Shown here: positions 2,464 to 49,654 of the stretch, in pieces
Layout of the letters: every line of letters starts with the position of its first letter
Numbering within the stretch: the stretch's first letter is position 1
Source of the DNA: Comamonadaceae bacterium
GTDB lineage: Bacteria; Pseudomonadota; Gammaproteobacteria; Burkholderiales; Burkholderiaceae_C
NCBI GenBank assembly: GCA_009996515.1
Contig: JAACZV010000014.1
Span: 5,529 to 69,528, forward strand
Direction: 5' to 3'
Length of the DNA stretch: 64,000 nt
Translations under genes and position numbers: made by a program
The notes under the pieces: model-generated
Database searches by the model: none
Seen by the model: only the letters and a program-made list of their open reading frames with translations
Told to the model about the DNA's origin: nothing

Positions 2464-2488
2464 TCTGTGACCTTGGTTTCCAAGGAAA

Positions 2489-2540
2489 TCCTGGTCGGGG
2501 TGAGAGGATTCGAACCTCCGGCCTCTACGTCCCGAACGTA
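2489..2540. repeat. left att repeat with 3' tRNA-Pro fragment
   Basis: Perfect copy of 49655-49706. Positions 2492-2540 (minus sense) correspond to the tRNA from the anticodon stem to the encoded CCA. The fragment has no 5' half and cannot make a tRNA. The repeat edge falls in the anticodon stem-loop, the usual crossover region of tRNA-targeting tyrosine recombinases. Confidence 0.92.
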
Positions 2541-10616: not shown

Positions 10617-10627
10617 GCCAAACAAGG

Positions 10628-15478: not shown

Positions 15479-15681
15479 CGAATCTCCCTCAGAAAACCTC
15501 GATGTCGTCACTCACAGCGCAACACGCCGTCTACCGCATTCCGATGGTGAGCGCTCGCCAGCGTAGGATTGCTACTGCTCACCGCAGCTATGCGGCGAGG
15601 AGCAGCGTAGAACTGCCTCCCGCCCCCAAAGGCTGTGCACGTCATTCGTTCTGCTACCGCACGGTGGCGCAGGGAGGGGGA
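15479..15681. other. gap ahead of the Lamassu-like operon
   Basis: About 200 bp without a gene, which must hold the promoter of the three-gene operon. I see no clear sigma-70 boxes. Confidence 0.3.
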
Positions 15682-16974
15682 ATGCAGGATGGCAATCGGC
15701 CCATCGCGCTTGGCATACCGGACCAGGTAGATGGCCTAGCTACAGCGCCGACAGACCGCGGCGACGAGATGCAGGAGCGTCTCCGATACCAATGGTCGAT
15801 AGGGGTGTGTCTGCTGGCTCAAGGTCTGGTGGGCATCCGCGACATGCGTGCCCTCTGGTGTGAGCACCATGATGACTATTTGATCGAGCTCTCGTCTGGT
15901 CAGTACGTCGCCGTTCAGGTGAAGACCGACTCTCGCGAAAACATCAGGTGGCGGTGGAGCGAAGAGGCCCTAGTCGAGTCAATCGCTCGGTTCTGTGTTC
16001 TGGAGCAGAAGCACGGGGATGCCATCGCGTCCTTCGAGTTTCAGTCGAACGCCGCGCCATACATCCCTGCATCCTCGACGGAATCAGAGCAGCGCCAGGT
16101 CTCCAGTCCGATGCGCTTGGTCGAGTGCTGCCAGAGGGCTGCCGACGTATCAAGCATCGAAGCGCCGTATGACAAGGCCTTCAAAGCGCTGCTGGCAAAG
16201 ACTGGGAGCGGTGACGAATGCCTGTTCAACGTGCTTCGCAAGCTGGAGTTCCTTCAGGGGCCCTCGCTACGAGGGCTGGACGACTCAATGAGCGGTCGCG
16301 TCGTGCCGATGCTGCCGGACTGCTCAGCCTTGCCAGCAGTGCGATGCTGCCAGCTTCGTGACGACCTCATCTCGTTGGTTCAGGGTGCTTGCCACCTCAA
16401 GTCTGAAGGTCTCGACGGGGTGCTCGACTACATCGCGAGCAACGGACGGCCCCAGTCCGTCTTGCGGGGCAAGTGCCTGACCCTAGATGTGGCGAAGGCG
16501 CGCATTGCCAGCATGCGGCAGCCTTCCTTCCGATTCGTTTACAGCGGCCCGAGCCTTCCGCTTGCTGACGCAGCCGGCAGGTCGGGGGTTCTCCAACGCA
16601 AGATGCGAAACGCATACATCCTGGGCCAGTACGAGGGGCTTCAGATGCGTGTGGAGTCGGCCGAACAGCACCTTTTGGGCCGCGCGCTCAACGAACCTGA
16701 AGAGTTCGAGAACATTGCAGCCCAGCTCCAGGCAGTGGTGCTAACCGAGTGCAAGGACATCGAGGCGTTGAACTCGAGCCATCCTGACGAAAAGCGCCGC
16801 GGCAGCCTCATCTACCAGGAGATTCTCAAGCGCATGACAGGGCTCGCCAAGGACGAGCCAGCGCAGGTCTGTCGAGAGTCCAAAGACACGCTGATGGGGA
16901 TCGCAGGGATGCTCTCCGGCGAGTGCCGGTTCGCTTGGGGCCTGCCTCTCGAGGAGGACGACCATGGCGCTTGA
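15682..16974 (+). CDS. DUF4297/Cap4-type nuclease effector of a Lamassu/ABC-3C-like system
   Basis: Protein of 430 residues. The N-terminus shows the DUF4297 pattern of Cap4 and LmuA effectors: DRGDEMQERLRYQWSIGV (helix), then an acidic E61...D65 and the strand QYVAVQVKTDSRENIRW, giving the E-D-QxK site of a PD-(D/E)XK dsDNA nuclease. The remaining 300 residues are helical and unrecognised. The start at ATG 15682 follows AGGGAGGGGG. Its stop overlaps the start of the next gene. The operon order (nuclease, small middle subunit, SMC ATPase) is that of Lamassu and of ABC three-component systems, which defend against phage and plasmids. Confidence 0.8.
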   Translation: MQDGNRPIALGIPDQVDGLATAPTDRGDEMQERLRYQWSIGVCLLAQGLVGIRDMRALWCEHHDDYLIELSSGQYVAVQVKTDSRENIRWRWSEEALVESIARFCVLEQKHGDAIASFEFQSNAAPYIPASSTESEQRQVSSPMRLVECCQRAADVSSIEAPYDKAFKALLAKTGSGDECLFNVLRKLEFLQGPSLRGLDDSMSGRVVPMLPDCSALPAVRCCQLRDDLISLVQGACHLKSEGLDGVLDYIASNGRPQSVLRGKCLTLDVAKARIASMRQPSFRFVYSGPSLPLADAAGRSGVLQRKMRNAYILGQYEGLQMRVESAEQHLLGRALNEPEEFENIAAQLQAVVLTECKDIEALNSSHPDEKRRGSLIYQEILKRMTGLAKDEPAQVCRESKDTLMGIAGMLSGECRFAWGLPLEEDDHGA

Positions 16975-17518
16975 ACTCGCACGCGCTCTCGCAGCTACGG
17001 AGAGGGACGACCACCTGCACATGGCTCGGTTGCTCCTCCTGATGGCCGCTCACGCGGGCACGAAGAAGCGGCCTGTGGAAGGCCTGACCAAGCTCGCGAA
17101 GCTGGACTTTCTCCTTCGATACCCGAACTGCCTTGAGCGTGCTCTTGTCGCCGATGGTCGAGATCCTGCGATTGCTGGCGTCAAGGAGTTCGAGCGCACC
17201 ACTATCGAAACCAAGATGATCCGATTTCGCTATGGCCCCTGGGACCATCGCTACCGGCGTTGGGTTGCGCTGCTGGCGGCGCGCGGCTTGGTTGTTGCCT
17301 CTGTTGTGGGAAAGACGGTCAACATCTGGCCAACAGAGGAAGGTGAGGCCATGGCGGCAGCGCTGGCTGACTCGCTTGCGCTTGAGGACCTGGCCAAGAG
17401 GGCGCAGCTCGTGGCAAAGCGGTTCGGCAACCGCAGCGGGACCGGCCTGAAGGAGTTCGTCTATCAGACGTTCCCGGAGCTCACCGAAATGAAGTGGGGG
17501 GAGGAGATAGAGATATGA
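16964..17518 (+). CDS. middle component of the Lamassu/ABC-3C-like system
   Basis: Protein of 184 residues, helical at the start with a winged-helix-like core (TKLAKLDFLLRYP; MIRFRYGPWDHRYRRWVALL; GLVVASVVGKTVNIWPTEEG), as in ABC-3C middle components and LmuC/DdmB-like subunits, which bridge the nuclease and the SMC ATPase. It overlaps the nuclease gene by 11 bp and the ATPase gene by the 4-bp ATGA, so the three proteins are translationally coupled. The assignment rests on size, position and fold-like pattern rather than a catalytic motif. Confidence 0.7.
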   Translation: MALELARALAATERDDHLHMARLLLLMAAHAGTKKRPVEGLTKLAKLDFLLRYPNCLERALVADGRDPAIAGVKEFERTTIETKMIRFRYGPWDHRYRRWVALLAARGLVVASVVGKTVNIWPTEEGEAMAAALADSLALEDLAKRAQLVAKRFGNRSGTGLKEFVYQTFPELTEMKWGEEIEI

Positions 17519-19512
17519 GGCTGGACCTTACGAAACTTCGCCTGGAGCTGCGGCGGTCCGTTGAGACCATTGACCTGCCCAGGGTTAACTACTTCTATGG
17601 CCCGATTGGCTCGGGCAAGTCGAGCATCGGACGTCTCGTCGACTACTGCCTCGGAGGGTCATCGAAGTGGACACCTGCGTTGCAATCGGAGCTTGTTTCG
17701 GTTGCGCTTGAGCTCTCGGTCAACGACACGCCGCTGACCCTATACCGTGACCGCGATTCAACGCGCCTGGTTGCGACATGGCAGGCTGGGGATGACACCC
17801 TGCAGGTTCTCATTCCTGCTAAGGATGCAGGCGCGGAGGTGCTCCCTGACACGGGCGTCATGGTCCTCTCTGACCTCCTGTTCTATCTTGCGCGCGAGGA
17901 ACCCCCGTATGTCCGTCGCAGGAAGGGCGCGCCGGACGAGCGATTGGAGCGCCTTAGCTTTCGGGACCTCTTCCGCTTCTGCTATCTCGATCAAGATGGC
18001 ATGGACAACGTGTTCTTCCGGCTCGACTCGGAAAACTACGCGCTTGCCCAGAAGAGCGTGGACGCCATGCGCTACGTGCTGGGCTATCGAACTGAGCAGG
18101 TGGCTGAGCTTGAGTCCCGCCTTCAAGCGCTCCGCGAAGAACGGGTCGGCCTCGCTGCCGGCGCAAATGCGCTTGAGAAGGCACTCGAAGAATCAGGTCT
18201 GAACGACCTGGTCGACTACGACGCAAAGATTGAACGCCTACGTGCCGACATCGACCGTGCGCGCCAGGCAGCGAAGGCGGCACGGAGCGCGCGTGACTCG
18301 GTGCCCCATGCGGTCGAGGAGATTCGGGATCACGCTCGCCGCCTCGCCATGGAGGAGATGGCGCTTGAGCAAGCGCGCATCGAGATCGACGCCCGTCGTG
18401 GAGACCTCGAGCGGCACGTCAACGAGCTGGACATGCTGTCGGTGAGGTATCAGAGAACCGCATCGGCGCGGATGCTGCTCGGCGGCGTCGCGTTCACTTC
18501 CTGCCCCCGCTGTACGCAGGCGCTGCCGGTACGAGACCCGCAGTGCTGCAGCGTCTGTGGGCAACAGGAGCACATCGTCGAAGCCGGCGGTGCACTTTCA
18601 GAGGCCGTTGTGAAAGAGGACCTGAGGGCGCGTCGGAGCGAGCTGAAGGACTCGCTTGACCGGCTCGCAAGGGAGCGTGGGGTCATCGGCCGCCGAGCGG
18701 AGGAAATTGCGTCAGAACGTCGCGCGGCGAATCAATCGCTTGAAGCGCGTCTCGTGGAGTACGACTCCGCCTTCCTGTCGCAAGCGCTCCAGCACGAGCG
18801 ACGGGTGGTGACGCTGGAGCAGCGCCTCAATGGCCTGCTCAGAAGTCGCAAGCTGCCTGACGTTCTCCAAGCTCAGCGCGACCGCGCAGCATCCTTGCAG
18901 GGAGACGAGGCGGAGCTGCGCGTGACCATCGAGGCTGCCAAGCGTTTGGCGTTCAACGACAGAAAGAGCATCGACCTGTTGGGGCGACTGTTCTTGGACT
19001 GCTTGGTCCGTGCGAAGTTCCCTGACGTGAAGAAGACGTATCACGTCGACATCAATCCGACGGACTTCTATCCACGCATTCCGCTTGGGCAGCATGAGGC
19101 CCTGGTGACTCTGGCGTACGACAACGCTGGAAGTGGCGGCATGAAGGCGCTGTTCAAAACCTGCTTCGCGCTGGCGCTGCACCGCGTGTGCGCGCAGATG
19201 CCGGACTCACGCCTCCCGCCAGTCCTCGTGATCGACACCCCTACGAAGAACGTCAGCTCCATCGAGAACCCAGAAGTCATTTCAGCCTTCTTCCGCCTCG
19301 TCTATGAGCTGGCTGCCGGAGAGCTCGCACAGACGCAGTTCATCATCATCGACAACGAGTTCAACCCAGTTCCGCCCGATGTGGAACTCGCAGTCCAGAA
19401 GCGCCACCTCGTCAAGGGAGACCCGGAGAACCCGCCTTTGATTCCCTATTTGGCGGGAGACTTTTCGCAAGACGAGGACGGCGACGCAGAACCCGCAGAG
19501 GTGCCGTTCTAG
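17515..19512 (+). CDS. SMC/Rad50-like ABC ATPase of the Lamassu/ABC-3C-like system
   Basis: ATPase of 665 residues: Walker A GPIGSGKSS at 29-37 followed by LVDYCLGG as in DUF3732-type ATPases, then two long coiled coils (about 190-315 and 365-475). These are separated by a zinc-ribbon-like apex with CPRC (330-333) and CSVC (345-348) rather than a single Rad50 hook. The C-terminal lobe holds LVIDTPTKNVS (Walker B region) and FIIIDNEF. It probably senses foreign DNA ends or structures and releases the nuclease. GGGGAGGAG precedes its start, which overlaps the middle gene. Confidence 0.85.
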   Translation: MRLDLTKLRLELRRSVETIDLPRVNYFYGPIGSGKSSIGRLVDYCLGGSSKWTPALQSELVSVALELSVNDTPLTLYRDRDSTRLVATWQAGDDTLQVLIPAKDAGAEVLPDTGVMVLSDLLFYLAREEPPYVRRRKGAPDERLERLSFRDLFRFCYLDQDGMDNVFFRLDSENYALAQKSVDAMRYVLGYRTEQVAELESRLQALREERVGLAAGANALEKALEESGLNDLVDYDAKIERLRADIDRARQAAKAARSARDSVPHAVEEIRDHARRLAMEEMALEQARIEIDARRGDLERHVNELDMLSVRYQRTASARMLLGGVAFTSCPRCTQALPVRDPQCCSVCGQQEHIVEAGGALSEAVVKEDLRARRSELKDSLDRLARERGVIGRRAEEIASERRAANQSLEARLVEYDSAFLSQALQHERRVVTLEQRLNGLLRSRKLPDVLQAQRDRAASLQGDEAELRVTIEAAKRLAFNDRKSIDLLGRLFLDCLVRAKFPDVKKTYHVDINPTDFYPRIPLGQHEALVTLAYDNAGSGGMKALFKTCFALALHRVCAQMPDSRLPPVLVIDTPTKNVSSIENPEVISAFFRLVYELAAGELAQTQFIIIDNEFNPVPPDVELAVQKRHLVKGDPENPPLIPYLAGDFSQDEDGDAEPAEVPF

Positions 19513-19547: not shown

Positions 19548-20111
19548 TCAGCTTTCCAAGCTCAGACTGGTCGCTCTCGCAAGCTTGACGTCCAGTTTGC
19601 GAAGCGGGCGTGCTCGCATTTGCTGCATGGTTTCGGCGAGTCGCGCCTTCTCGGCACTTTGAGCCGCGGCTTCAAGCGCTTGGGCAAGGGCGTTTGCAGC
19701 GAGTAGCTTGCGCCTCGCAGCCTCCCGCACCTCCCTCGACTTCTCCACCGCTTGCCACTTGGACTGGACCGCAGACCCCAACTGCGATTCAGCTTCGGAC
19801 AAACAGCAGATGGCTTCGGCCAGCGCACGATGCGACACGGCGTTGAAGTCCTGACCGTCAGGGGGATCCTGAGTTTCAGACGTTTCTTGGGCGTCGTGTG
19901 CAGCGGCAATTTTCTTCTTGAGCGCCTTAACGTCCTGCTGCAGTGCGGTCATGACAGAGCTTGGGTTTCCCTGGCCGAACCATTCTTCAGTCTTCTGGCA
20001 GTTCTGCTCAGCGAGAAGAAACTCCACCTTCAGCGCATCCGCGGTGGCTTTTGCATTGGCAAGCGCAACCGTGAATTCGTTTTTGCGGGGGATAGAGGAG
20101 GTCTTGTTCAT
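19548..20111 (-). CDS. coiled-coil hypothetical protein
   Basis: Alanine-rich protein of 187 residues, predicted almost wholly helical with heptad-like spacing (residues about 10-90 and 100-170). No membrane segment. The start at ATG 20109-20111 has AGGTG upstream and is preferred over an in-frame start 10 codons earlier. It converges with the SMC ATPase gene (35 bp between stops). Function unknown; a structural or virion-like role cannot be excluded. Confidence 0.55.
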   Translation of the reverse strand: MNKTSSIPRKNEFTVALANAKATADALKVEFLLAEQNCQKTEEWFGQGNPSSVMTALQQDVKALKKKIAAAHDAQETSETQDPPDGQDFNAVSHRALAEAICCLSEAESQLGSAVQSKWQAVEKSREVREAARRKLLAANALAQALEAAAQSAEKARLAETMQQMRARPLRKLDVKLARATSLSLES

Positions 20112-20246
20112 TATTTCACCTAAAGGAATGTCAGCGCCCACGCCACGGTGGCGTGATTTGCCGAGATCGGTGAACTAGAGGAATGGCCTGCGGCAAGCCC
20201 AGTTCGGGCGCCGCGCGGCCTTCTGTATCTGCTTGCGTTTAGCCCC

Positions 20247-20723
20247 TCAGGCAGAGATGGGCTGTTCAGCGCGAGTAGGGCGCGCGCACTCGTACTTAAA
20301 CCGTAGGGTTTCAACAGCCTCTGCGTCCTGCGCTGGGGTGAGTGTCAGGACATAGCTACCTCGATAGCCCGACAACTGTTCGGCGCTGGTCAGATACCAA
20401 CCGGCAGACTTACGCTCGATTCGCACCTTCGTGAGCTTTCGGCTGAACTTGTAGGCGTTCGCCACCGTGCCGCCAGAAACCGCAACAGCGAACGCTCCGG
20501 CGCGACGACCCTTTGCGATACCCAACGCTTCCAACTGCCGCTCGGCCCGCTCTGCTAGCTGCTCAAGTTCTTGCGCTCGAGTAAAGCTGTGGGCGGTGGC
20601 GTTGCCGTTCACCTCAAAGAGCGCCGTCGACAGCTTATTACTGTGGTCGGCGTCAATCTTGATGGTCTTCGCGCGGCGAGCTGCTGCGGCGATATTCAGA
20701 GGGGTGCTGTTCGGAATGGACAT
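20247..20723 (-). CDS. hypothetical protein
   Basis: Unrecognised basic protein of 158 residues. The N-terminus is alanine- and lysine-rich (NIAAAARRAKTIKIDADHSNK), and a later segment (GWYLTSAEQLSGYRGSYVLTLTP) looks like a small beta domain. It is the first gene after a good sigma-70 promoter at 20839-20867, and the coiled-coil gene downstream could be on the same transcript. Confidence 0.5.
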   Translation of the reverse strand: MSIPNSTPLNIAAAARRAKTIKIDADHSNKLSTALFEVNGNATAHSFTRAQELEQLAERAERQLEALGIAKGRRAGAFAVAVSGGTVANAYKFSRKLTKVRIERKSAGWYLTSAEQLSGYRGSYVLTLTPAQDAEAVETLRFKYECARPTRAEQPISA

Positions 20724-20838
20724 TTGAGAACCAGTTGATAAGAGGGCTACCCTCAGCGAAATGCTGAGGACTCAGATCAATGGCTTTCGCCGAACAGTGA
20801 TTCAAAAGACGAGCTTGTCGACTTATTGAATGGAGCGC

Positions 20839-20867
20839 ATTCTAACGTGAAAGCGCGCTCGTGTCTA
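20839..20867 (-). promoter_or_regulatory. sigma-70 promoter for the 20723 gene
   Basis: On the minus strand, TAGACA (20867-20862) and TAGAAT (20844-20839) are separated by exactly 17 bp; each differs from consensus at one position. It lies in an unusually AT-rich gap and points at the gene starting at 20723. Confidence 0.7.
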
Positions 20868-20938
20868 GCGGTAATGTGACTTTTCGTTGACTGACATACT
20901 CGCAAAATGCATTTAACAAGTCTGCAATCCGGGTTTAT

Positions 20939-20964
20939 TGCCTGATAACCCACATTATCAGGTA
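20939..20964. promoter_or_regulatory. dyad operator candidate CCTGATAA-N6-TTATCAGG
   Basis: Perfect 8-bp inverted repeat (20941-20948 and 20955-20962), extended to 11 bp arms with one mismatch, located 75 bp upstream of the promoter at 20839-20867. It resembles a repressor or activator site; the cognate protein is unknown. The remaining bases of the gap 20724-21069 show nothing else. Confidence 0.5.
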
Positions 20965-21069
20965 AGAATTAATGGCATCAAACCGGGGCAGGCCGCTCTC
21001 ATGCCCTGAAAGCGACCCTTTGCAGACGCCGGACTAGCCGTTCGCGCCGCCGGCCTGCGTCGCTCAGCC

Positions 21070-21477
21070 TTACGCCATCCGCGTGAGTGCCAGGAACATA
21101 GGGACGTCGAGCTCATCAATCACCGGATAGCTGTTCGCGCCGACGTCCGGATTGGAGACGTGGAGCCAGCCTTCATGGCGGCAATCCATGCCATCGTCGG
21201 TGACGACGTACTCAATACCAGCGTCCCACAAAGCGAGGGCAACCTCCGCCGTCTCCTTGGAACGTTCCTTCGCCCGCGGCGGGGCGTCTCGCAGGTCTCG
21301 AACGTGAGCATTGAGCGCGGCCCAAGCTTGGCCGACGGACATGCCAACGGATTGGAGACGGAGACCGAGGAGGGCGGTGCGAATGTCGTTCACCTCACCG
21401 TTGTTCGTAGGAGCCTGCGGGGCAAGGGTGCGTTCGCTCGGGGCAGTGCAGTTCATAGAGGTCGAAATGGTGGGCAT
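21070..21477 (-). CDS. hypothetical protein
   Basis: Unrecognised protein of about 135 residues. Starts at 21477 and 21456 are both possible and neither has a strong ribosome binding site. The second half reads like a compact alpha/beta protein (ALWDAGIEYVVTDDGMDCRH, then SNPDVGANSYPVIDELDVP). Follows the gene at 21498-21971 on the same strand by 20 bp, so the two are probably cotranscribed. Confidence 0.5.
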   Translation of the reverse strand: MPTISTSMNCTAPSERTLAPQAPTNNGEVNDIRTALLGLRLQSVGMSVGQAWAALNAHVRDLRDAPPRAKERSKETAEVALALWDAGIEYVVTDDGMDCRHEGWLHVSNPDVGANSYPVIDELDVPMFLALTRMA

Positions 21478-21497
21478 GGGGTTGGCGGGGAACGCGG

Positions 21498-21971
21498 TCA
21501 GTTGTAGTCGTGTCGACGGCAGCGCAACAGGGTGAAGAGCTGTGACCCACCACCCCACGGGGCGAGTTCTGGGAACCGCGCCACCAACCGCGCCGGGTCG
21601 ACGATCTGCAGAACGCCTTGAGTGCTCAAGTCCCACTGCGGGCGCGCCGGGATGTATGCGAGCCCGACGTCGTACAGGCGCTCGAGATTCCGGCAACGGT
21701 GCTCCTCGTCATCGCTGTCCAAGACGCCGCGGACCATCTTCTTGAGGGTGATTTCCTCAATGGCGCCCCATGCGCCGTCAACGGTTAGCCCACGGCCGAG
21801 GAGTTGATCCAGCACCAGGATCTTGAACTGGACGCGGAAGAAGAGCTGGACCTGTGGGACGGGCTCGAGGTCGAGAACCTCCGCTTGCGCGACGAGGTCA
21901 TTCATGGCGCGAGCCTGCTCGGCGTTTTTTTGAACCAGGTCGGAGATGGCGGGGATGGTGGGGTTGTTCAA
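21498..21971 (-). CDS. hypothetical protein
   Basis: Unrecognised protein of 157 residues, probably starting at TTG 21971, which has AAAGGA 6-7 bp upstream; no ATG or GTG fits. It is helical in the first half (VQKNAEQARAMNDLVAQAEV) and has a middle part FRVQFKILVLDQLLGRG. No known domain. First gene of a two-gene minus-strand unit. Confidence 0.5.
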   Translation of the reverse strand: MNNPTIPAISDLVQKNAEQARAMNDLVAQAEVLDLEPVPQVQLFFRVQFKILVLDQLLGRGLTVDGAWGAIEEITLKKMVRGVLDSDDEEHRCRNLERLYDVGLAYIPARPQWDLSTQGVLQIVDPARLVARFPELAPWGGGSQLFTLLRCRRHDYN

Positions 21972-22159
21972 GTCAGTTCCTTTAGATCAGCCGCAAGGGC
22001 CACCCACACATGTAGTGCTAACAGGGCGACATGAACTGCGTCAAAACCGGCGGGCGCCGAAATGTCCGAGCAATCGCTGGGTGATATTTCAATGTAAAGA
22101 AATGCGAACTACGGTGGGCTCGCGAAGCCCATCTGACAGCGCTGGACGCGCGGAAAAAG

Positions 22160-22229
22160 GCGGCGTCCGAGGAGTGGACGCCGCGGAAGGCTCAGTTGCC
22201 GAGGACGTGACGCGGAGGACGCGCGTCAC
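22160..22229. other. two adjacent GC hairpins in the 22.0-22.4 kb gap
   Basis: The first is GCGGCGTCC (22160-22168) with GGACGCCGC (22176-22184), a 9-bp perfect stem with a 7-nt loop. The second is GTGACGCG (22207-22214) with CGCGTCAC (22222-22229), an 8-bp perfect stem with a 7-nt loop, followed by CCTTTG. They lie between divergent genes (21971 and 22447), where terminators are not needed, so they may be leader or operator structures. Nothing else is seen in 21972-22446. Confidence 0.45.
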
Positions 22230-22446
22230 CCTTTGTATAGCTCGATGGAACCTCCTTAAGTCGGTCCGCCGTCACCTCAAACGGCCCGGAAATTCAAGGT
22301 CGTTTCGGCAGTGTTGCGCGGACCAATAAGTGCATTTTGAGCGGAAGCCCCCTCGCACATACGCTGTCCCCAACAGCAGTGCGCACACCGGCGCCCCTCA
22401 TCGAACTGCTGCCATTTTGCAGCTCATAGAAGGGTTATGTTTTGAC

Positions 22447-23220
22447 ATGCCACAGTCCGTATTCATAGACACCGAGTTCATCGAGACACCGCACGGTCCA
22501 CGCTTCATCAGCGTCGCACTTCTGCCCCAAAGCGGCGCGGAGCTATACAGCGAGGTCAGCAATGACGAGGCCGAATCGCTTCTGAAGGCCTTTCCGAACC
22601 AGTTCGTGCGTGAGCACGTCGTGAGCCAACTGGGGCGCTGGCCCGCAGTTCCATGGGCTGAGTTGCCTGGCGCGCTCGCGGCTTGGCTAGACGCACTCGG
22701 CGAGGAAGCCGTTGATGTGATCTACGACTACTCCAGCGACTTCCTGCTGCTGGAGCAGTTGCTGCAATCCTGCCCCGAGCGACTCAAGACCCGGCTGCAT
22801 CCAGTACATGTCGGCTACTTGCTCGACGATGAGGACGGCAAGCGCGCCGCTGCGGCGACGTGGAATGCGGTGGAGCACGTATGGGGGCTGAGCCGGCACC
22901 ATGCCTTGGCAGACGGGTTCGCGCTGAGGGCAAGGTTCGAAACCGTGCACCCACCCGTACCCCCACCTCGGAACCCCAGGACGATTGAAGTGCTGGTGAC
23001 GGTATCCGTTGTCATCAGCGAGTTCGAGCTGGTGCACGCAGAGTCAGACGATGGGCAGCTGACCATCTCTATCGGCAAGCGGACCAGCGGTGTCGACTGG
23101 CGCAGCTTGACGCCCGGCCAGCGTCTTCGTTGTGTTGTGCATCTTGACCCGACGCGCACGCTTTCCGCGGAACTGCTTTCCCCATCGGACCCCATGGGGG
23201 ATTTCGACAATGACAAGTGA
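22447..23220 (+). CDS. 3'-5' exonuclease-like (DEDD) protein
   Basis: Protein of 257 residues. The N-terminus SVFIDTEFIETPHGPRFISV has the D-x-E of DEDD exonucleases and resembles Rv2179c-type (DUF5051) 3'-5' exoribonucleases. A second acidic motif, YDYSSDFLLLEQL (about 93-105), and the terminal RHHALADG (about 153-160) give the third Asp and the H/D pair. The last 90 residues form an extra domain with beta-strand character. The ATG at 22447 lies about 12 bp after AAGGG. It overlaps the next gene by 11 bp. Substrate is unknown. Confidence 0.65.
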   Translation: MPQSVFIDTEFIETPHGPRFISVALLPQSGAELYSEVSNDEAESLLKAFPNQFVREHVVSQLGRWPAVPWAELPGALAAWLDALGEEAVDVIYDYSSDFLLLEQLLQSCPERLKTRLHPVHVGYLLDDEDGKRAAAATWNAVEHVWGLSRHHALADGFALRARFETVHPPVPPPRNPRTIEVLVTVSVVISEFELVHAESDDGQLTISIGKRTSGVDWRSLTPGQRLRCVVHLDPTRTLSAELLSPSDPMGDFDNDK

Positions 23221-23686
23221 GGAGCTGCGGCTCGATCCCGTCCCTTCAGACTTTCCGCGCCCATGCAGCGGAGCCCTGAGTGGAGTTCAACCCAAAGTTG
23301 CGGTGCGCTACATCGAGGGCAAGTTCGTCGAGCATGATGAGGCTGAGCATCGGGAGAGGTATGACGCATGCAGCAACATGGTTGAGCAACTGGTCGAGTA
23401 TTCCCATCGAAAGCGCGTCCAGCTCGCGCACCTAAGCCTGGTGGAATACATGCGACGACTTCGAGAGGCCGTTGTTCGAAAGGGCTGGGACGTGGCCCCC
23501 GAGGAGCTAACCTGGGTGATGCAACGGGTGACCATCGCGCTGGGCGGCGACGCTCTTGATGTTCCGCAGCAAGAAACCCTGGCCGTGGTGCAAGACGTCC
23601 AGGCGCAGACGGTCGCGATGCCGGTGGAGACGCTGGTGGATCAAGTGCGGGCTAGGCTGGAGGCACAGCACAGGAAACCAGACTAG
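23210..23686 (+). CDS. hypothetical partner of the exonuclease-like gene
   Basis: Unrecognised protein of 158 residues whose start overlaps the exonuclease-like gene by 11 bp, implying translational coupling and a joint function. The stretch ALSGVQPKVAVRYIEGKFV briefly recalls the HipA motif SGVQPK but the rest does not match a kinase. The middle is helical (ERYDACSNMVEQLVEYSHRK) and the end is rich in Gln and Val. Confidence 0.55.
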   Translation: MTSEELRLDPVPSDFPRPCSGALSGVQPKVAVRYIEGKFVEHDEAEHRERYDACSNMVEQLVEYSHRKRVQLAHLSLVEYMRRLREAVVRKGWDVAPEELTWVMQRVTIALGGDALDVPQQETLAVVQDVQAQTVAMPVETLVDQVRARLEAQHRKPD

Positions 23687-23900
23687 CGGTTGGAAAGTCG
23701 CTGGCGCGCTAACTGCAAAGCGAATGCAACGGTGTAGATGGCGGCGACAGCCGAGACCACGCGCACCCACCTGGACGTGGGCGTTGGCAAGCACCATCAT
23801 CATCAACGAACGCCTACCTGAGAAACTCTCTCAAGCCCCCTCCGCGACATGCCGGCCTCGTGGAAGCGGACAACCCCGGTGTGGGTGCCGGTAGATGCAT

Positions 23901-25630
23901 AGCTCTTTCCGCGGGGAAAGCGCTGGAGCGGCGCCAGCGTGCGACCTGCAGTGTGCATCCGTCCGATGTTCGTTCCGGCGCATGCCCTCGGAGGGTGCCG
24001 AGAGGATGCCTGCGCGGCATATTGAGGATGACCTGGCGGAGATAGCAGCCTGCGTTGATCCGGGGCCTGCCTGAGGCGTAAGTCCGGACCAGCGTGTCGC
24101 CGCGCGAGCGCCGACCGACTTTCCCCAGGGAAAGTCTCGACGTGTATTCCGGCGCGGATGCCGTCGCAAGCCCGCCCGCATGCTGGTCGTCGGTGTCATT
24201 TGGAGCACCGGCCGTGAACACCGGGCGTGCTCAATGGTTGACGCTACTTGCATCGTGCAATGTGCTCCAGCTCTGTACGGCGCTAGTGGCGTCAACTGCC
24301 CTGACCGATGGTCCGTCGATCCTTCCGAGCAGAAGGATGTTGAGTAGTACCGCGCGGAACCGCTGGCGTGTTCTGGAACGGAGTCGCACGCGGTCGCTGC
24401 AACTGGCAACCGGTGTCAATGTCGATGCTCAGCCACTGGAAGCCTTGCCCTGATTCTTCATGGTGCGAGACCGGTGCTGCCCGCTGGTGTAGGTCTGGGC
24501 AACGAACTTTCCTGCAGGAAAGTCCGCCGCTGTTGCAAGCATGATGCACTGAGTGGCAACCGGTGCGACGCTGGCTGCGGCTTCTCGCCAGTGCACTTTG
24601 GCTACCCCGCGGAAGTAAGGCGCCCTATCGTCATCGGCGGCACGGGGCGCGCTTCGGCGGGTGCAAGCAACAAGTTAAGGACCTTCCCCGAGGAAAGGTC
24701 CGCGCAGGTGCCTGACGTGGTGGCTCGGCGGAGGGGTGAAGGATGATGCCGCGTTCGCCAGAAGCAGCGCGCGGAAGGGGGCTGCGCGGCACCGTCAGGC
24801 GGTCTTCGCGAGATGCACATCGCGACGTTCGGTGCGGTCGGCGATAGGTACATGCCTGCTCCCAGGAAGGTAAGTGCGGTGGCATCGTCCTGGTGACCAG
24901 TGACGTCATTGTCTCGTGCTTGCGGGGACTCCCCAGTTGTGCTCCGGACTGGTTATCACCATGTGACCGGCAGCTGCGACGAACTGTGCACTCGAACAGT
25001 CTCCTCGCGGCACCAGCCGTGATGTCGCTGTGGTGCCTCCGGCGGTGCTGGTTCGTACGCCACCGAGTGCGCGCAAGCGCACGTCGGGAATGCAGCGACG
25101 CGACCAACGCAACGTCCCAAGCGACGTGCACAGAACTTTCCCGTCGGAAAGTTCCTGAGGATTCCAGTGCAGGGACTGCTGCTGTTCTACAGCGTGGCAG
25201 GGAGGGATAGTGGCCATGAGCAACGACTTTCCCTGAGGAAAGTCGCGCCGCCTGTCGCGACAGCGGGCACCGCACCGCGTCAACTTGATGCTGCAGTTCA
25301 CCGTGGGCTAACGCACGCGAAGAGCTATCAAGGCGCGTGCATCGCAGCGTCTGGGTGTTGGTCAACGGGATGCACATTTGCGGTGTCATCAAAGCGAGCG
25401 GCGTAGGGAGCATCGACCGTGCACTCGAGCAATCCCACGCGGCGGTTCGGACAAGTCTCCATCGCGTGGCCTGTGCAGTGCACCCGTGCTGTGCCGTCAG
25501 GTGCTGCTGTTTTCGCCGCGCACCTTCTCCATCGGCGTCAGGGAGTCGTGGGTTAGTACGGGAGGGCCGGGCGCATCTGCGGGCGCAAGTAAGCGTTGCC
25601 ATCGCCGTCGATCTTTCCTGCAGGAAAGTT
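23901..25630. repeat. array of CTTTCC-N4-GGAAAG palindromes
   Basis: Seven copies: 23901-23924, 24117-24136, 24506-24523, 24679-24701, 25133-25154, 25224-25245 and 25611-25630. The inner CTTTCC...GGAAAG arms are kept while the 4-nt centre varies (GCGG, CCAG, TGCA, CCGA, CGTC, CTGA, TGCA). Outer pairs vary but stay complementary in most copies (GA/TC, GAA/TTC, CGA/TCG, GGAC/GTCC), and copy 4 has one arm base deleted. A looser relative, ATCCTTC...GAAGGAT, lies at 24319-24338. None is followed by a T-run, so they are not terminators. Confidence 0.8.
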
Positions 25631-26797
25631 GGTGCTGAACGCCAGCGGCGAAGGCGCGGGCGGCGGCGCTGACGTTCGCACTGCTGAATCGCTAACAAGC
25701 GTTACTAAGGAATATGCCTGCGCTAGCTCGTCGCTCCCTGTGGCGGCTCGCGACGGAGGTGGTGGTGGCGCTTAGCCTCCCCGTGTGTTCCGACCTCATC
25801 AAGTTCAAGGCTCGGCGGAGAGGTCGGAAAGGGCGTCCTACCTGTATGACTCTACTCAGACGTCGGAGAGCTCGACCACCCTACGACTCGGCACCCACGT
25901 CTTTGGCAACGTAGCCCCTGGCAGGCCCCGCGTCCCGCGACCCTGAGCCCAAGCGAACCACGCGCCCACTTGCGCCCCATCACCGCGCTGCGCCTTCGAT
26001 ACCCGGAATGGCCGTAAGAAGCCCCTCACGCTCGCCCATTGATCGCCGCTGCACCCGCAGATGAACCTACATGGCCAGACCTAAGGAGCCCCGCTGGGGG
26101 GCTGTGCCGTCCCGAAGGCGCTGAGTGCGTTCCGCCTCCCCGGAGGCTCGCTGACCTTGGCATGTCCAGGAAGAGCCTCTGCCGGCTACGAGCCAGCTGC
26201 CGGCCCGGCGCCGCGAATCGCTGGCCGCCTCACTACGCCAGCGTCTGCCTGTGCGGCAGGCGCAGCCTCGCTCGGCTCTGCGCTGGCCTCCATGAAGCGG
26301 TTGCTCGGAGGTGAGGGGGCATGGATAGACCGGGAGCGCCACTTACATGCGTGGTTTGAGTGCCTGGGAGCCGCCTTCCGATCCGGCCAAGCCGGGCCTG
26401 CCGGCGCGCTGCGATAAGGGCTTGCTGCGCGACGACGGCGTCGTTGCTCAGTGTCCCGGTTTGAGTTGCCAGCCCCCTTTCGCGTGGGGCAGCTCGATGA
26501 CCAGGCTGGCCCCGCTCCGCGCATCCACAGCGGTGCTTGCGCGCGCCATCTCGCGCCCCTCGTCACAGCTCAGTCTGCCGCACGGGCGAAAAGTCCTGCC
26601 GTGCGTTGGAACCCGAGGCGGCGATGACGTTCTTGCTGCCGGGTGTCCCGCCGCCTCGCCTGGATGCCCGGCTCTCCGGCCGAAGCGGGGCGGCCGACAG
26701 CCCCGGTCTTGCGGTGACGAGGCCGTTGATAAGTGAGCGAAATCGTTCGGCTCATCGTCGAGGCTCAGCCACCGCAAACCGGCCATTGCACGCGCAT

Positions 26798-26813
26798 CTT
26801 TTCCTAGGAAAAG
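26798..26813. repeat. related palindrome CTTTTCCTAGGAAAAG
   Basis: A perfect 16-bp palindrome resembling the array motif but without the 4-nt centre. It lies 200 bp upstream of the XRE regulator gene and 1.2 kb after the last array copy, so it may be an outlying member or an operator. Confidence 0.5.
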
Positions 26814-27012
26814 TCGAGCACCGCCTCCGCCTCGCACGCGAGCGACTGACGAGTGGGATGGGGGAGTTCAACAGGAAGGTGGTCGGTCTGGCACTCGGGC
26901 CTGGGCGCTTCGCGATCACCACCGCGCGGCGACGGATGCATCCGCAGCGTTGATGGCGCGCGCCCGGGGCGTGACATTCGCCGGGAACTTTGGCTTCTTA
27001 TGATGCAGGCCC

Positions 27013-27441
27013 ATGCCCATCAACCTTCAGACCCTAGGCTCGAAGCTCGCCAAATATCGCGCGCAGCTGAAGGAGTCGGTTGTCGAGGTTGCCTCAGCCA
27101 CAGGCATCGGCACAGAGCGCCTTGTCGCCATCGAGGGAGGTCAGATCGAGCCCACCGGCGATGAGGTCCTCATCCTGGCTGACCACTACCGCTGCGACTT
27201 CAAGTTCTTCATCTCCAACGAGCAGCTCGCGCCGTTTGAACAGACCGAGACGCTCTATCGTGCGCACGGCGACGACTTCACCAAGGATGATCGCCGAGCA
27301 GTTCAGGACTTCCTCTACCTGTGCGAGACAGAGGAGTTCCTGATGCGGGAACTGGGGCGCCGGGTCCCCGACGATGCACGAGAAGCGGAGTCGTCCCTGC
27401 TTCCGCCCAGGGCCGCGCGGCCCGTGGGAAATCCAGTTTAG
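27013..27441 (+). CDS. XRE-family regulator, C-terminally truncated
   Basis: An HTH_3/XRE domain covers residues 8-62 (LGSKLAKYRAQLKESVVEVA ... LVAIEGGQIEPTGDEVLILA). It is followed by the linker CDFKFFISNEQLAPFEQTETLYRAHG and a helical part ending MRELGRR, which in relatives leads into an ImmA/IrrE metallopeptidase domain. Here the similarity stops near residue 118 and about 24 Arg/Pro/Ala-rich residues finish the frame, so the peptidase half is lost. The gene runs into the 3' end of the LysE gene after 10 bp, marking a probable deletion junction at about 27,370-27,450. Confidence 0.7.
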   Translation: MPINLQTLGSKLAKYRAQLKESVVEVASATGIGTERLVAIEGGQIEPTGDEVLILADHYRCDFKFFISNEQLAPFEQTETLYRAHGDDFTKDDRRAVQDFLYLCETEEFLMRELGRRVPDDAREAESSLLPPRAARPVGNPV

Positions 27442-27451
27442 CGAAGCGGCT

Positions 27452-28069
27452 TCAGGTGCCGCGCCGCGCAGTGGCCAGGAAAACGCCCAGCACGACCATC
27501 GTGCCGCCCGAGACGCGGCTCAAGACCTTCGCCCGAGCTGCCCGAGCCTTGCTGGATTTCAGCATCCGGTCGGCGCCGAGCACAGCGAGAACGTCCGCGA
27601 GGGTGTTCAGCGCGACGCAGATGCATCCCAGCACCACCAGTTGCGATGCCAGTGGCGAATCAGGCACCGTGAACTGCGGCAGGAAGGCCAGAAAGAACAA
27701 GGCCGTCTTGACGTTCAAGGCTTCGACCACGATGCCTTCCGTGAACGCGCGCCGTGCTCCTTGAGCACTGACCGTCGGCGCGGCGTCGTCAGGGGTGCGG
27801 TGCAGCAGCATGCGTACGCCCAGGTAGACGAGGTAGGCGGCACCGACGTACTTGACCAAGTTGAACGCCCACGCCGACTGCGCGATGAGCAGTGACAGGC
27901 CGAAGGCGGCAGCCAGCACGTGGACCAGGCCACCGATCCCGGTGCCGAGACAGGAGGCCAACCCTTCGGTGCGGCCACCGGCCACGGTACGGGCCACCAC
28001 GTAGGCGATGCCGGGGCCTGGGGTGATGGCCAGGACCACAGCAGCGAAGATGAAGGCGAGAAGCGACAT
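27452..28069 (-). CDS. LysE/RhtB-family exporter
   Basis: Inner-membrane exporter of 205 residues with about six hydrophobic segments. The N-terminus LAFIFAAVVLAITPGPGIAY carries the family TPGPG motif, and GVRMLLHR and VVEALNVKTALFFLAFLPQF are further LysE landmarks. Probable substrate: an amino acid or related small metabolite. It is the last gene of a minus-strand unit (PaiB, GST, ABM, LysE) divergent from a MocR-type regulator. The start at 28069 gives the normal family length. Confidence 0.85.
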   Translation of the reverse strand: MSLLAFIFAAVVLAITPGPGIAYVVARTVAGGRTEGLASCLGTGIGGLVHVLAAAFGLSLLIAQSAWAFNLVKYVGAAYLVYLGVRMLLHRTPDDAAPTVSAQGARRAFTEGIVVEALNVKTALFFLAFLPQFTVPDSPLASQLVVLGCICVALNTLADVLAVLGADRMLKSSKARAARAKVLSRVSGGTMVVLGVFLATARRGT

Positions 28070-28079
28070 GGCTGGATGC

Positions 28080-28427
28080 TCAGGGTTGGTGTGATGGAGG
28101 CGTGCCGGTAGCAGCCGCGAGCGGATGACCGATACCGCCGTCACCGTAGGAGCGGATGACCTGGGCGACGACGATGTGATAGCCGTTGATCCACTGAGCC
28201 TGCTTCCGCTTGGCGGCGATGTGAGCTGGATGCTCGACCAGCTGCTGCAGCGCTTCCAGCGTCTCCCAGTAGTAGACCGTCGAGATGAGCCCCGCAGTCG
28301 GGTTCTCCCACGCTTCCTCACCAAGGTAGCCTGGGATGCCCTTGGCTACGTCGGCAATGACTTTGTCGAGATGGTGGAACTCGTCGTCGTACTCGCCCTT
28401 GGCGAAGGTGAAGGTGGCGCTGTACAT
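28080..28427 (-). CDS. antibiotic biosynthesis monooxygenase (ABM)-like protein
   Basis: Small protein of 115 residues with the dimeric alpha/beta barrel pattern of ABM domains (MYSATFTFAKGEYDDEFHHL, then GYLGEEAWENP, STVYYWETLEALQQLVEHPAH). These proteins often monooxygenate phenolic compounds, but many have no known activity. The ATG at 28427 is 7 bp after the GST stop, so translation is coupled. The C-terminal 20 residues are Pro/Gly-rich and beyond the domain. Confidence 0.7.
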   Translation of the reverse strand: MYSATFTFAKGEYDDEFHHLDKVIADVAKGIPGYLGEEAWENPTAGLISTVYYWETLEALQQLVEHPAHIAAKRKQAQWINGYHIVVAQVIRSYGDGGIGHPLAAATGTPPSHQP

Positions 28428-28434
28428 CCGCCCC

Positions 28435-29055
28435 TCAGCCCAGCAAGTCGTAGGCGGCCTGCCAGCCCGGAATCTGCGCGATGCGCCCCATCCATGCAGC
28501 CATGTTCGGGTACTCGGTCTGAATGTCGAAGCCCAGCTCTTCCTTGGGATAGAACACATAGCCCGCCAAGGACAGGTCGGCGATGGTCAGTCGATCCCCG
28601 ACGATGAATTGCTGCGTGCCAAGGTGCTTCTCGACGATGTCGAAGGCGCCCGCGGTGCGCTGGCGCATGAAGGCCAGCACCGCCTCGTGTGGGGCCGGCG
28701 TCGCGAAAGTCCGCAGCCAACGGTAGGTGGCCAGGTTGGCGGTGAACTTGTGGTTGTCGAACAGCACCCAGCGGAGAACCTCAGGGCGTTCCTCTTCAGA
28801 CAGGCGCAATGCATTGGCGTGTTCAGCCAGATGCAGCAGGATCACGCCCGACTGGGACAGCTTCCGGCCATCGACCTCCAGCACGGGCACTTCGCCAAGC
28901 TCGTTCACCTCAGCCCGCCAGGCCGGCTGGCGAGTCTCGTCGCCAAAGTAATCAACGACGACCTTGTCCCACGGCAGGCCGGCGATGGATAGAGCCAACG
29001 CCACCTTGTACGAGTTGCCCGATTCCTTGAAGCAGTGCAGCCTGTATGGCGTCAT
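28435..29055 (-). CDS. glutathione S-transferase family protein
   Basis: Cytosolic GST of 206 residues. The thioredoxin-like N-domain starts YRLHCFKESGNSYKVALALS, where the serine of the SGN stretch is the likely glutathione-activating residue, and contains the cis-proline GEVPVLE. The helical C-domain has the N-capping box VGDRLTIADLSL. The start overlaps the PaiB stop by the 4-bp ATGA. Within the operon it probably detoxifies a compound also handled by the LysE exporter; substrate unknown. Confidence 0.85.
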   Translation of the reverse strand: MTPYRLHCFKESGNSYKVALALSIAGLPWDKVVVDYFGDETRQPAWRAEVNELGEVPVLEVDGRKLSQSGVILLHLAEHANALRLSEEERPEVLRWVLFDNHKFTANLATYRWLRTFATPAPHEAVLAFMRQRTAGAFDIVEKHLGTQQFIVGDRLTIADLSLAGYVFYPKEELGFDIQTEYPNMAAWMGRIAQIPGWQAAYDLLG

Positions 29056-29690
29056 GACGAAGCCTTCGGCGCGGTGTCCTTCATGGCCTGCGCGAGGCCC
29101 TGGTTCCCGCGAGCTTCCAGGCCACGGATGGCGCCCTCGCGGTCCTGAGGCTGATGGTGCTGGTTCAGCTTGCGCTTGCCTTCCAAGCGACTCAGCCGGA
29201 CTTCAATGCCAACGATGTGCTTCAGCTCCTCGGTGATGTAGTCGGGCGGCGCGTCGCCCATCTTCCAGGGCTCGGCCTGGTCAGCCTCGTATTGACGTGT
29301 TAGCCGGGCCACGACGCCTCGAATGAACTTTTCGTCGTCACGGATATGGATGGCGCCGTGCGCATGAACCACCTCGTAGTTCCAGGTCGGCACACGTCGA
29401 TGCGTCTCCTTCTTGCCGGGATACCAACTCGGGGAGATGTAGCCGTTCACGCCACGGAACACAACGAGCACTTCGTCGCCATCGCGCACGTCCTTCCAGA
29501 CAGAATTCGCCCGTGCAACGTGCGCGGTCAAGGTGGCAGCACCCGCCGCATCGCCATCAAGCAGGAACGGCAGGTGGTTGGCCTCCAGCCCACCGGCAGT
29601 GTTCGTCACCAGCGTCCCAAGCGAGTTCTCGCGGACGATGCGGTGGAGCTCTTCAATCCGAGGTTCGGCAAATTGCTTGGGCAGGTACAT
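29052..29690 (-). CDS. FMN-binding protein, PaiB-like
   Basis: Protein of 212 residues of the PaiB/FMN-binding split-barrel family: MYLPKQFAEPRIEELHRIVR, then GTLVTNTAGGLEANHLPFLL, ISPSWYPGKKETHRRVPTWN and IVGIEVRLSRLEGKRKLNQH are the family blocks. PaiB proteins are described as negative regulators in Bacillus, but most homologues bind flavin and may be enzymes. First gene of the minus-strand operon, 110 bp from the divergent MocR-type regulator. Confidence 0.85.
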   Translation of the reverse strand: MYLPKQFAEPRIEELHRIVRENSLGTLVTNTAGGLEANHLPFLLDGDAAGAATLTAHVARANSVWKDVRDGDEVLVVFRGVNGYISPSWYPGKKETHRRVPTWNYEVVHAHGAIHIRDDEKFIRGVVARLTRQYEADQAEPWKMGDAPPDYITEELKHIVGIEVRLSRLEGKRKLNQHHQPQDREGAIRGLEARGNQGLAQAMKDTAPKASS

Positions 29691-29800
29691 GGGCGTGCCG
29701 GCTGTCGATGTAGCCGGAACTCCGGCGAAGGCGTCACTTTGCGCCGATGCTGGCCCGTGGAAAATAGCCAGTTCTGCATCAGTTCACCAGACCAGTTGCC

Positions 29801-31306
29801 ATGTCGACTGACGAACGCCGGACCGGCCTGAGCCGGGCGCTCTACGAAGAATTCCGCGCACGCATCGCGGATGGCACCTACGCTGCCGGCGCACCGCTGC
29901 CTTCGACGCGCGCTCTGGCTCTGGAACGCGGTCTGTCACGCGCCACCGTCTCTCTGGTGTACGAGCAACTTGCAGCCGACGGCTTCATCGAAAGCAGAGC
30001 CGGCGCAGCCAGCCGCGTCACCGTTGGAGCCGCACAGGCGGTGCCCGCAGGCCGAGCCAAGCGTGAGCGAACGAAGCCAACCGCACCAGACCCGCTCGCC
30101 GGCTCACTGTCTGCCATTGGTCAACATATCGCTGCGCTCAAGCTGAGCGACTCGAGGCCGACGGCGCTTGGCGAGATTGACTTCGTCTACGGGCCGCTGT
30201 CAGGCAGCGACTTTCCGACGCTGACCTGGGTGAAGGCGATGCGCGCCGTTGAAAGTCAGCGGAGTCGGCGCCTTGAGTACGAGGACCCGCGAGGCAATAT
30301 GGAGCTTCGCCGGGCTCTACAGGCGCACCTCAGCCAGGCTCGCGGTCTCGCCTGTTCGGTCGAGCAGCTCATGATCGTCAATGGCTCGCAGCAGGCGCTC
30401 GACCTTTGCGCCCGCTTGCTCGTCGATCCGGGTGGCGGCGTGGTCGTGGAGAACCCCGGCTATCGGATGGCGCACCATGCCTTTGAAGCCTACGGTGCAC
30501 AGTTGCTCTGCGCCGACGTTGACGCGCACGGCCTGGTCACCGAGCAACTGGGGAAGCTGGGCCCGGCAAAATTGGCCTATGTCACGCCGACGCATCAGTT
30601 CCCGCTGGGCTCCTTCCTGCCCATCGCGCGGAGGCGGCAACTGTTGGACTGGGCTGCCGAGCAGCGGGCATGGATCATCGAGGACGACTACGACAGCGAG
30701 TACCGCTACGCAGTGCGGCCAGAGGCGACGCTGCAGTCGCTCGACACCCGTGGCTGCGTCATCCACGTGGGCACGTTCTCCAAGACCTTGTCGCCACAAA
30801 TGCGGATGGGCTATATGGTGCTGCCTCCTGCATTGGTGCAGCCCTTTGCCGACGCCAAGCGGGTGACCGACCGACATGCGGCGACTGCTGTGCAGCGAGC
30901 CTTGGCCCGGCTGCTGGAGGACGGCAGCTATGACCGGCATGTCCGCCGAATCCGCCGCCTGCAGCAGGCAAGGCAGCGCGCGTTGGTGGACGCGCTGGGC
31001 CGTCATCTGGGCGATGAGGTTGAGGTGCAAGGGGCCGCCAGTGGCTTGCACGTCGTGGCGTGGTTTCGAGCGGTGCCGGCGGCGGCAGAGAGCGCCCTGA
31101 TCGACGCGGCAAGGCATCAAGGCGTGCGCGTGCATCCCATCAGTCCGTTGTTCCATCCGAGCAAGGCCGCGCTGACATCGACACGCTCAGCCGGCCTGGT
31201 CATGGGCTATGCGCTGCTGGACGTGGACACCATCGAAGATGGCGTTCGCCGTCTGTCAAAGGCGCTTCTGCACCTCAGGCGGAAGGCAAGCTCGCATCAC
31301 CACTGA
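29801..31306 (+). CDS. MocR/PdxR-type GntR-aminotransferase regulator
   Basis: Protein of 501 residues. A GntR winged helix covers about 10-75 (ALYEEFRARIADGTY ... LPSTRALALERGLSRATVSL), followed by a linker and a class I aminotransferase fold with the PLP lysine segment HVGTFSKTLSPQMRMGY and the aspartate IIEDDYDSEYRY. MocR proteins sense PLP-linked ligands. It is divergent from the PaiB-GST-ABM-LysE operon with a 110-bp shared control region, and probably regulates it. Confidence 0.85.
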   Translation: MSTDERRTGLSRALYEEFRARIADGTYAAGAPLPSTRALALERGLSRATVSLVYEQLAADGFIESRAGAASRVTVGAAQAVPAGRAKRERTKPTAPDPLAGSLSAIGQHIAALKLSDSRPTALGEIDFVYGPLSGSDFPTLTWVKAMRAVESQRSRRLEYEDPRGNMELRRALQAHLSQARGLACSVEQLMIVNGSQQALDLCARLLVDPGGGVVVENPGYRMAHHAFEAYGAQLLCADVDAHGLVTEQLGKLGPAKLAYVTPTHQFPLGSFLPIARRRQLLDWAAEQRAWIIEDDYDSEYRYAVRPEATLQSLDTRGCVIHVGTFSKTLSPQMRMGYMVLPPALVQPFADAKRVTDRHAATAVQRALARLLEDGSYDRHVRRIRRLQQARQRALVDALGRHLGDEVEVQGAASGLHVVAWFRAVPAAAESALIDAARHQGVRVHPISPLFHPSKAALTSTRSAGLVMGYALLDVDTIEDGVRRLSKALLHLRRKASSHHH

Positions 31307-31510
31307 GCGAGCTGCTTGAGCGTGTTCAGCAGTCTGTCGCTCAGGCGCTGAGCAACGAATGACTCAGATCAGCCTTGAGCCGACTTCGGGCTAGCTAGAG
31401 GCGGCTGTGCAGCGATTGCGGCCCTTCGGCACGGCGGGCCGAACTCACGCTTTGGCCCCTGGAGCGGTCATCGCCGCTGCCTGAGGACCGTCGCCTCAAA
31501 GGCCTGACTT
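31307..31510. other. gap without a gene
   Basis: About 200 bp between the regulator gene and the SMP-30-like pseudogene, with no credible reading frame. Confidence 0.3.
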
Positions 31511-49479: not shown

Positions 49480-49535
49480 TCGGACGAGTTCGACAGAAGT
49501 TTCTGGAACTCGGTATAGGCAAGTACAAGTGGCAT

Positions 49536-49588: not shown

Positions 49589-49654
49589 AAGGACCCTCTG
49601 GCATCAGCGACCACCAATCCGGTATCCGGATAAGTCGTTGATTTGCAAAGGAAT

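Follow-up and report, generated by a model that had tools for sequence, protein, structure and literature searches.

The DNA analysed here (the window, 64,000 nucleotides) carries a tRNA-Pro (CGG) gene, the end of which recurs as a 59-nt direct repeat, 98% identical, far to its left (Table 1). Plasmid matches to Acidovorax, Methylibium and Burkholderia indicate that the genome probably belongs to the Burkholderiaceae. These direct repeats, together with a tyrosine integrase gene beside the tRNA gene, place an array of short palindromes of the form CTTTCC-N4-GGAAAG inside a 47.2-kb island. In addition to the integrase, the island encodes a RepC replication protein, a three-gene Lamassu defence system, the LmuA protein of which has a Cap4-type nuclease domain, and proteins of the AlpA-like, NYN-domain, P-loop and AAA/AriA-like types. 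The array is located in the largest gap between the called genes of the island, bordered by a two-gene operon on the left and by an XRE-type gene on the right, and the same gap holds a conserved non-coding element of 63 nt, referred to as element E.

Table 1. Features of the island, the palindrome copies, and the copies of element E at other loci.
Feature	Position	Strand	Basis
Left island end, 59-bp direct repeat of tRNA-Pro end	2482-2540		repeat comparison
AlpA-like HTH gene	2731		protein scan
NYN-domain gene	3112	-	protein scan
P-loop protein gene	5242		protein scan
RepC replication protein	7146-8153	+	domain scan
AAA/AriA-like protein gene	11128		protein scan
Lamassu defence system (LmuA, LmuC, LmuB)	15502-19512	+	system search
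Upstream operon gene 1, exonuclease-like (RNase H-like) domain	22330-23220	+	protein comparison
Upstream operon gene 2, 158 aa, no assigned function	23210-23686	+	
Gene-free stretch holding the array	23690-26998		codon-usage scan; largest gap between called genes of the island
Palindrome copy 1, exact	23905-23920		pattern search of window and genome, matrix
Palindrome copy 2, exact	24119-24134		pattern search of window and genome, matrix
Palindrome copy 4, exact	24507-24522		pattern search of window and genome, matrix
Palindrome copy 5, one mismatch in left arm; one bulged base when folded, longer outer arms	24682-24697		mismatch searches, fold, matrix
Palindrome copy 6, exact	25136-25151		pattern search of window and genome, matrix
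Palindrome copy 7, exact	25227-25242		pattern search of window and genome, matrix
Palindrome copy 8, exact	25613-25628		pattern search of window and genome, matrix
Element E, conserved non-coding, with a pair of GCTCTCCGAC-type direct repeats separated by about 40 bp	25816-25878	-	sequence-model search
Palindrome copy 9, two substitutions pairing with each other	26798-26813		two-mismatch search, pair count, matrix
XRE-type HTH gene encoding the N-terminal portion of an XRE-peptidase M78 protein; interrupted at a recombination joint near 27361-27364	27013-27441	+	
Tyrosine integrase beside tRNA-Pro	47908-49617	-	domain scan
Right island end, inside tRNA-Pro (CGG) 49658-49734	49648-49706		tRNA call and repeat comparison
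Element E copy	L249 11702-11765		
Element E copy	L250 9772-9833		
Element E copy	L263 9970-10032		
Element E copy	L264 3588-3651		
Element E copy	L265 9478-9535		
Element E copy	L266 9817-9877		
Element E copy	L267 9814-9872		

The gene pair of the upstream operon is retained in two other genomes, G077 and G218, and is possibly an uncharacterised defence pair. On the other side of the array, the XRE-peptidase M78 protein, of which the window retains the N-terminal part, has a full-length counterpart of 380 aa in G117. From 27364 to 31332 (3.97 kb) the window is 98.6% identical to the congeneric genome G299, which is without the array. This segment carries LysE, GST, FMN-binding and MocR-like genes, and its neighbours differ from those of G299 on both sides. 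Judged from this alignment, a recombination joint is located inside the XRE-M78 gene and the island is a mosaic, the array-bearing stretch ending at the joint or just before it.

The stretch between the operon and the XRE gene had been described in an earlier note on this DNA as lacking a convincing gene, and the codon-usage scan and ORF scores agree. Best-frame coding scores of 300-nt windows starting at 23800-26800 ranged from -0.08 to -0.23, and the seven ORFs of the stretch scored -0.12 to -0.29 per codon, as against +0.05 to +0.28 for six island genes. The longest ORF (355 aa, 24631-25698, minus strand) scored -0.27 and displayed no codon bias; ORFs at least as long were present in 11 of 200 shuffles, which is within chance. 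No gene was called between 23686 and 27013 by a simple gene caller that was trained on 15 window genes and may miss small ones. Decayed coding DNA, which the earlier note had named as a refuting outcome, is rejected on these scores, no relative of the whole stretch having been found for comparison. An old tandem duplication was likewise rejected: masking the palindromes leaves 22 direct matches within the stretch that score at least 12 (12 to 23 in 12 shuffles), the best of them, a single 27-nt pair, scoring 19 compared with 17 for the best of all shuffles, and the flanks of the palindrome copies are unlike. No sigma-70 consensus promoter was found in 23500-27100 (0.4 expected). The three terminator-like sites of this interval (2.4 expected by chance) include none of the array palindromes, in keeping with the previous remark that no T-run follows these and that they are not terminators. 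Plasmid and phage collections contained no match to the stretch.

The window contains six exact matches to CTTTCC-N4-GGAAAG, with 1.1e-4 expected in 23690-26998 from base composition, and none of 100 window shuffles contained any. Seven exact copies had been counted before, one more than is found here; copy 5 has one mismatch. The close relative reported at 26798-26813 was recovered as a copy with two mutually paired changes (copy 9), and the looser one at 24319-24338, a 7-bp stem with a 6-nt loop, does not fit the motif and was left uncounted, which leaves eight copies in the array. In the genome of 4,576,037 bases the same six sites are the only exact matches, all of them within 23905-25628; genome-wide scatter, the outcome that the earlier note had set as a refutation, is thus not seen, the motif being confined to one place. 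Allowing one mismatch, the genome yielded eight sites, seven in the array (copy 5 being added) and one on another contig, and the backwards pattern, used as a control, yielded five. With up to two mismatches the window holds nine sites (1.57 expected), eight in 23905-26813 and one at 1031; exact copies elsewhere in the window, of which none had been noticed earlier, were not found. A matrix derived from the eight copies scored 19.9-26.3 on the copies and at most 12.8 on the rest of the window, a comparison that is partly circular since the matrix was built from the same copies.

The inner arms are indeed kept and the 4-nt centre free, as had been noticed: among the eight copies the mean pairwise identity is 0.937 for the arms and 0.29 for the centres, with 0.273 expected by chance, and the centre has a length of 4 nt in all of them. 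Summed flank similarities were 300.5 (left) and 348 (right), compared with 333 +- 34 at random places of the stretch, and these scores were reached by 171 and 53, respectively, of 200 random sets. Because centres and flanks are near chance level, the copies are not recent duplicates or insertions, which would still be alike, and because the arms remain alike while centres and flanks drift, the arms appear to be kept by something that reads them. The further claim that outer base pairs change together stood weakly. Over positions +-1 to 4 of the eight copies, Watson-Crick pairs occupy 18 of 32 places (12.25 expected; 904 of 40,320 permutations reach 18), with a p value of 0.038 after correction for the choice of depth; when G-T was counted as a pair, this value rose to 0.053. 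For the six exact copies alone, 16 of 24 outer positions are paired (4 of 720 permutations). In the output of a pair counter applied to the eight copies, pairing extends to 82.5% of the cells, a level attained by 6 of 500 shuffles, and the covariation score is 0.200, attained by 9 of 500; the numbers of doubly changed pairs and of different pair types are unremarkable (attained by 86 and 237 of the 500, respectively). These data are compatible both with recognition of duplex DNA and with recognition of hairpins.

Element E was first traced through a weak match in the congeneric genome G313, and is found in seven other genomes of the family. A model built from three copies identified 12 places in eight of 349 family genomes, nine of the places being outside the model; eight have E-values of at most 3.7e-6 (three being the model's own) and four have E-values between 1.8e-4 and 0.0051. 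The two direct repeats of E change together, reading CTCTCC in most copies and CTCGCC in G077 and G373. According to the same simple gene caller, the gaps without genes that contain E measure 0.8 to 4.0 kb, and the genes near its copies include restriction-modification, HipA, integrase and primase-helicase genes, the copies occurring in islands and defence loci across the family. Searches of plasmid and phage collections gave no match to E. As an RNA it is unconvincing, with consensus folds of -6 to -7 kcal/mol. In G077, which belongs to another genus, a homologous island of about 28 kb is inserted in tRNA-Pro (CGG) (contig C33, loci L270 and L267), and is arranged in the same succession as that of the window: one end, the AlpA-like gene, RepC, E, HNH-integrase and the other end. 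Nucleotide matches between the two islands are limited to E, their ends, the AlpA-like gene and the HNH-integrase block. This colinear conservation makes E a candidate cis-site of such islands; with RepC found in just two of the eight E-bearing genomes, a role of E as the RepC origin is disfavoured. Other short repeats lie around some of the E copies. TGGCYTTTGCTACACG repeats are present twice in G077, twice in G373 and four times in G313, and TTCACC-N3-GGTGAA-like palindromes, partly in 20-bp steps, lie in gene-free DNA near E in G313: seven of the 13 matches of L249 fall within 467 bp (10329-10795) and three of the 10 matches of L250 within 81 bp (9685-9765), totals that were reached by 5 and 12 of 200 shuffles, respectively. 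Our impression is that the short repeats around E may be ends of insertion sequences.

The related loci that were searched for the motif, as the earlier note had suggested, yielded no comparable array. There was no such site in the examined DNA around the relatives of the upstream operon (two close, at 55-57%, and one further), and no array near the two relatives of the XRE gene or near the five Lamassu relatives examined of the six found. None of nine E loci contained three or more like palindromes (six-base arms, spacer 2-6), one of them (L263) having a cluster of palindromes with five-base arms (TCGAC). The integrase has matches in 18 other genomes; 18 stretches from 11 genomes with related integrases contained neither the array nor E, and among them were one single TTTCC-N4-GGAAA and two loose GC-rich clusters of four. 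Since the homologous island and the other E loci are without it, the array is not part of a shared backbone. The exact motif occurs in 26 of 299 family genomes, including its own; 24 of the 25 others have it once and one has it twice, on different contigs. A control pattern matched in 17 of the 299, and one or two stray copies elsewhere in the family are what is expected by count. Among like palindromes of any sequence in the 1.63 Mb of DNA examined, no cluster was as large, and smaller clusters of four or five were present, some of them at loci selected for this motif. Genome contigs were scanned for pairs of motif sites separated by 70-100 bp, and of the 20 stretches obtained none has Burkholderiaceae in its title; the one with the most copies, from Tsukamurella spumae, has five, which all have the centre CGCG and overlap ORFs; viral contigs gave 1, 0 and 0 stretches for gaps of 70-100, 160-190 and 185-215, the contig scans covering only these spacings. 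A Verrucomicrobiaceae MAG contains four CTTTCC-N4-GGAAAG sites, with ANTT-type centres, in each of two similar clusters (L206 4450-4715 and L214 6915-7180). The literature search found no report of the motif among titles, and no paper with the motif strings.

The best and most economical reading, which we put forward tentatively and with somewhat less than even confidence, is that the palindromes are sites for a symmetric factor in cis-acting, non-promoter DNA of the island, of an origin-, partition- or transfer-like kind. Each of the eight copies would then be recognised by a twofold-symmetric factor, most probably a homodimeric protein of the helix-turn-helix type for which (A)CTTTCC in both halves matters and the 4-bp centre does not. 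Such sites would serve the island itself and not a promoter, and several bound dimers might form a nucleoprotein patch on its non-coding control DNA beside E, for the replication, partition or transfer of the excised island. The placing of the copies away from gene starts, in DNA with neither called genes nor a sigma-70 consensus, supports binding sites of this kind. The sole near-match outside the array in the genome search has a mismatch, so that no other promoter carries the exact site, and this exclusive, clustered and promoter-free placing favours a role in structure or maintenance, as opposed to the usual control of genes. A role as cis-acting DNA is also supported by the presence on the island of RepC, the AlpA-like gene and the integrase, and by E being kept colinear in the homologous island. 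Counting against it are the weak covariation of the outer pairs, which is unexpected if a duplex is read directly, the absence of the array from the homologous island and the other E loci, and the fact that the array is seen in one example only. The dimer sites proposed in the earlier note hence fit best as to fixed arms, free 4-bp centre and a single gene-free cluster, yet no island protein was tied to the motif; the function and the binder of the array are putative, and that the factor is island-encoded is a proposal.

Several known systems resemble the array in part. The operators of dimeric HTH proteins such as the phage P22 c2 repressor, Rex and FNR have inverted half-sites of 5-7 bp with exactly 4 free base pairs between them. 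The array shares with these the fixed inverted half-sites and the 4-bp centre of fixed length, but differs in half-site sequence and in having eight sites in gene-free DNA, none of them at a promoter. parS clusters and Noc sites are palindromes of 14-16 bp that are clustered in one region of a replicon and have a conserved centre, and the Noc binding site is TTTCC/GGAAA-like. The array is likewise clustered and resembles the Noc site in sequence, but its centre is free, and no ParA or ParB domains were present among the island proteins scanned, which comprise part of the island ORFs. Mycobacteriophage repressor stoperators, as described in PMC9283540, are many copies of one site, some away from promoters; the array is similar in having many copies of one putative site away from promoters, and is unlike them in being palindromic and in one cluster, stoperators being asymmetric and distributed across the phage genome.

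The main rival, second to the binding-site reading and in our estimate unlikely, holds that each unit works as a hairpin, whether within a long RNA, in several small RNAs or in DNA that is single-stranded while being transferred or replicated, and that a protein would read the stem and accept any 4-nt loop. The excess of outer pairs, the covariation score and the fraction of paired cells given above favour it, as do copy 5, which stays paired around a bulge, and the paired double change of copy 9, but the two other pair-counter measures were ordinary, and the stem bases hardly vary although structure alone would permit variation. Folding of the plus strand is stronger in 24001-25350 than almost anywhere else in the window (running mean fold score -1.41, second-lowest of 836, against an average of -0.30 over all windows; the minus strand is 45th with -0.97), a signal that is a hint only because the palindromes themselves contribute to it and neighbouring values overlap; as single strands, copies 8 and 9 are poor (z -0.98 and -0.43). 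Moreover, no Rfam family reached its cut-off in 20000-30000 (one match had 23.5 bits against a cut-off of 70) and the array region is without a promoter consensus, so that for the suggested RNA units the slight covariation and the low plus-strand fold score stand against the lack of both. Operators of the XRE protein are a much less probable explanation. This HTH protein adjoins the array, and 7+4+7 dyads with a free centre are typical of such repressors, but TTTCC-N3-6-GGAAA is missing from the roughly 39 kb examined around each of its two close relatives (82%), and the DNA directly upstream of both is without such a dyad.

A small mobile or REP-like family of palindromes that has spread within the stretch is improbable, if less so than the XRE operators. 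Like REPs, the copies are several short palindromes of one kind in intergenic, non-coding DNA, and Nocardioides aequoreus, which accounts for eight of the 20 stretches with the motif pair (L198-L200, L204, L205, L207, L211 and L212, with pairs about 100 bp apart in several places and contigs), seems to have a REP-type family of this kind. However, the exact motif occurs nowhere else in the genome and centres and flanks share nothing between copies, which disfavours the tiny mobile palindromes that had been suggested earlier. REP elements have a high copy number, spread over the genome (PMC2817692), usually above 100, compared with the 6-8 copies in one place here, and carry a GTAG or CGTC tag at one end (PMC3733652); no common tag of this kind was present in the flanks of the eight copies. 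Least probable of all is a link to the Lamassu system encoded 4.4 kb upstream in the same island, for which the array could be a decoy or built-in trigger. The idea is attractive because DdmABC (Lamassu) senses DNA stem-loops or palindromic sequences according to two reviews (PMC12904381, PMC12409362), but the stems of the array are short, and the five Lamassu relatives examined, just one of which is close (71%), give no support, having no palindrome cluster nearby.

On a wider view, which we consider doubtful, the stretch might be the site at which a hitherto undescribed system acts in cis to maintain or transfer tRNA-Pro islands, with E as the core conserved across genera and with each island adding its own clustered sites, here CTTTCC-N4-GGAAAG and elsewhere TGGCYTTTGCTACACG or TTCACC-N3-GGTGAA. 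As word counts gave no comparable array near the E copies, the notion of own site clusters beside E is a conjecture. Once excised, an integrated island has to replicate or move, and the DNA sites that it uses for this, being devoid of genes, are hard to find. What is new here is the place of the array in a tRNA-Pro (CGG) island with integrase, RepC and Lamassu, and the presence of element E in the same stretch. Should the units work as hairpins, the array would be unusual in combining stems constrained in sequence with loops that are free. Located in one gene-free place of its island, beside an element conserved in other islands, the array offers a defined piece of DNA in which to test for such a site.
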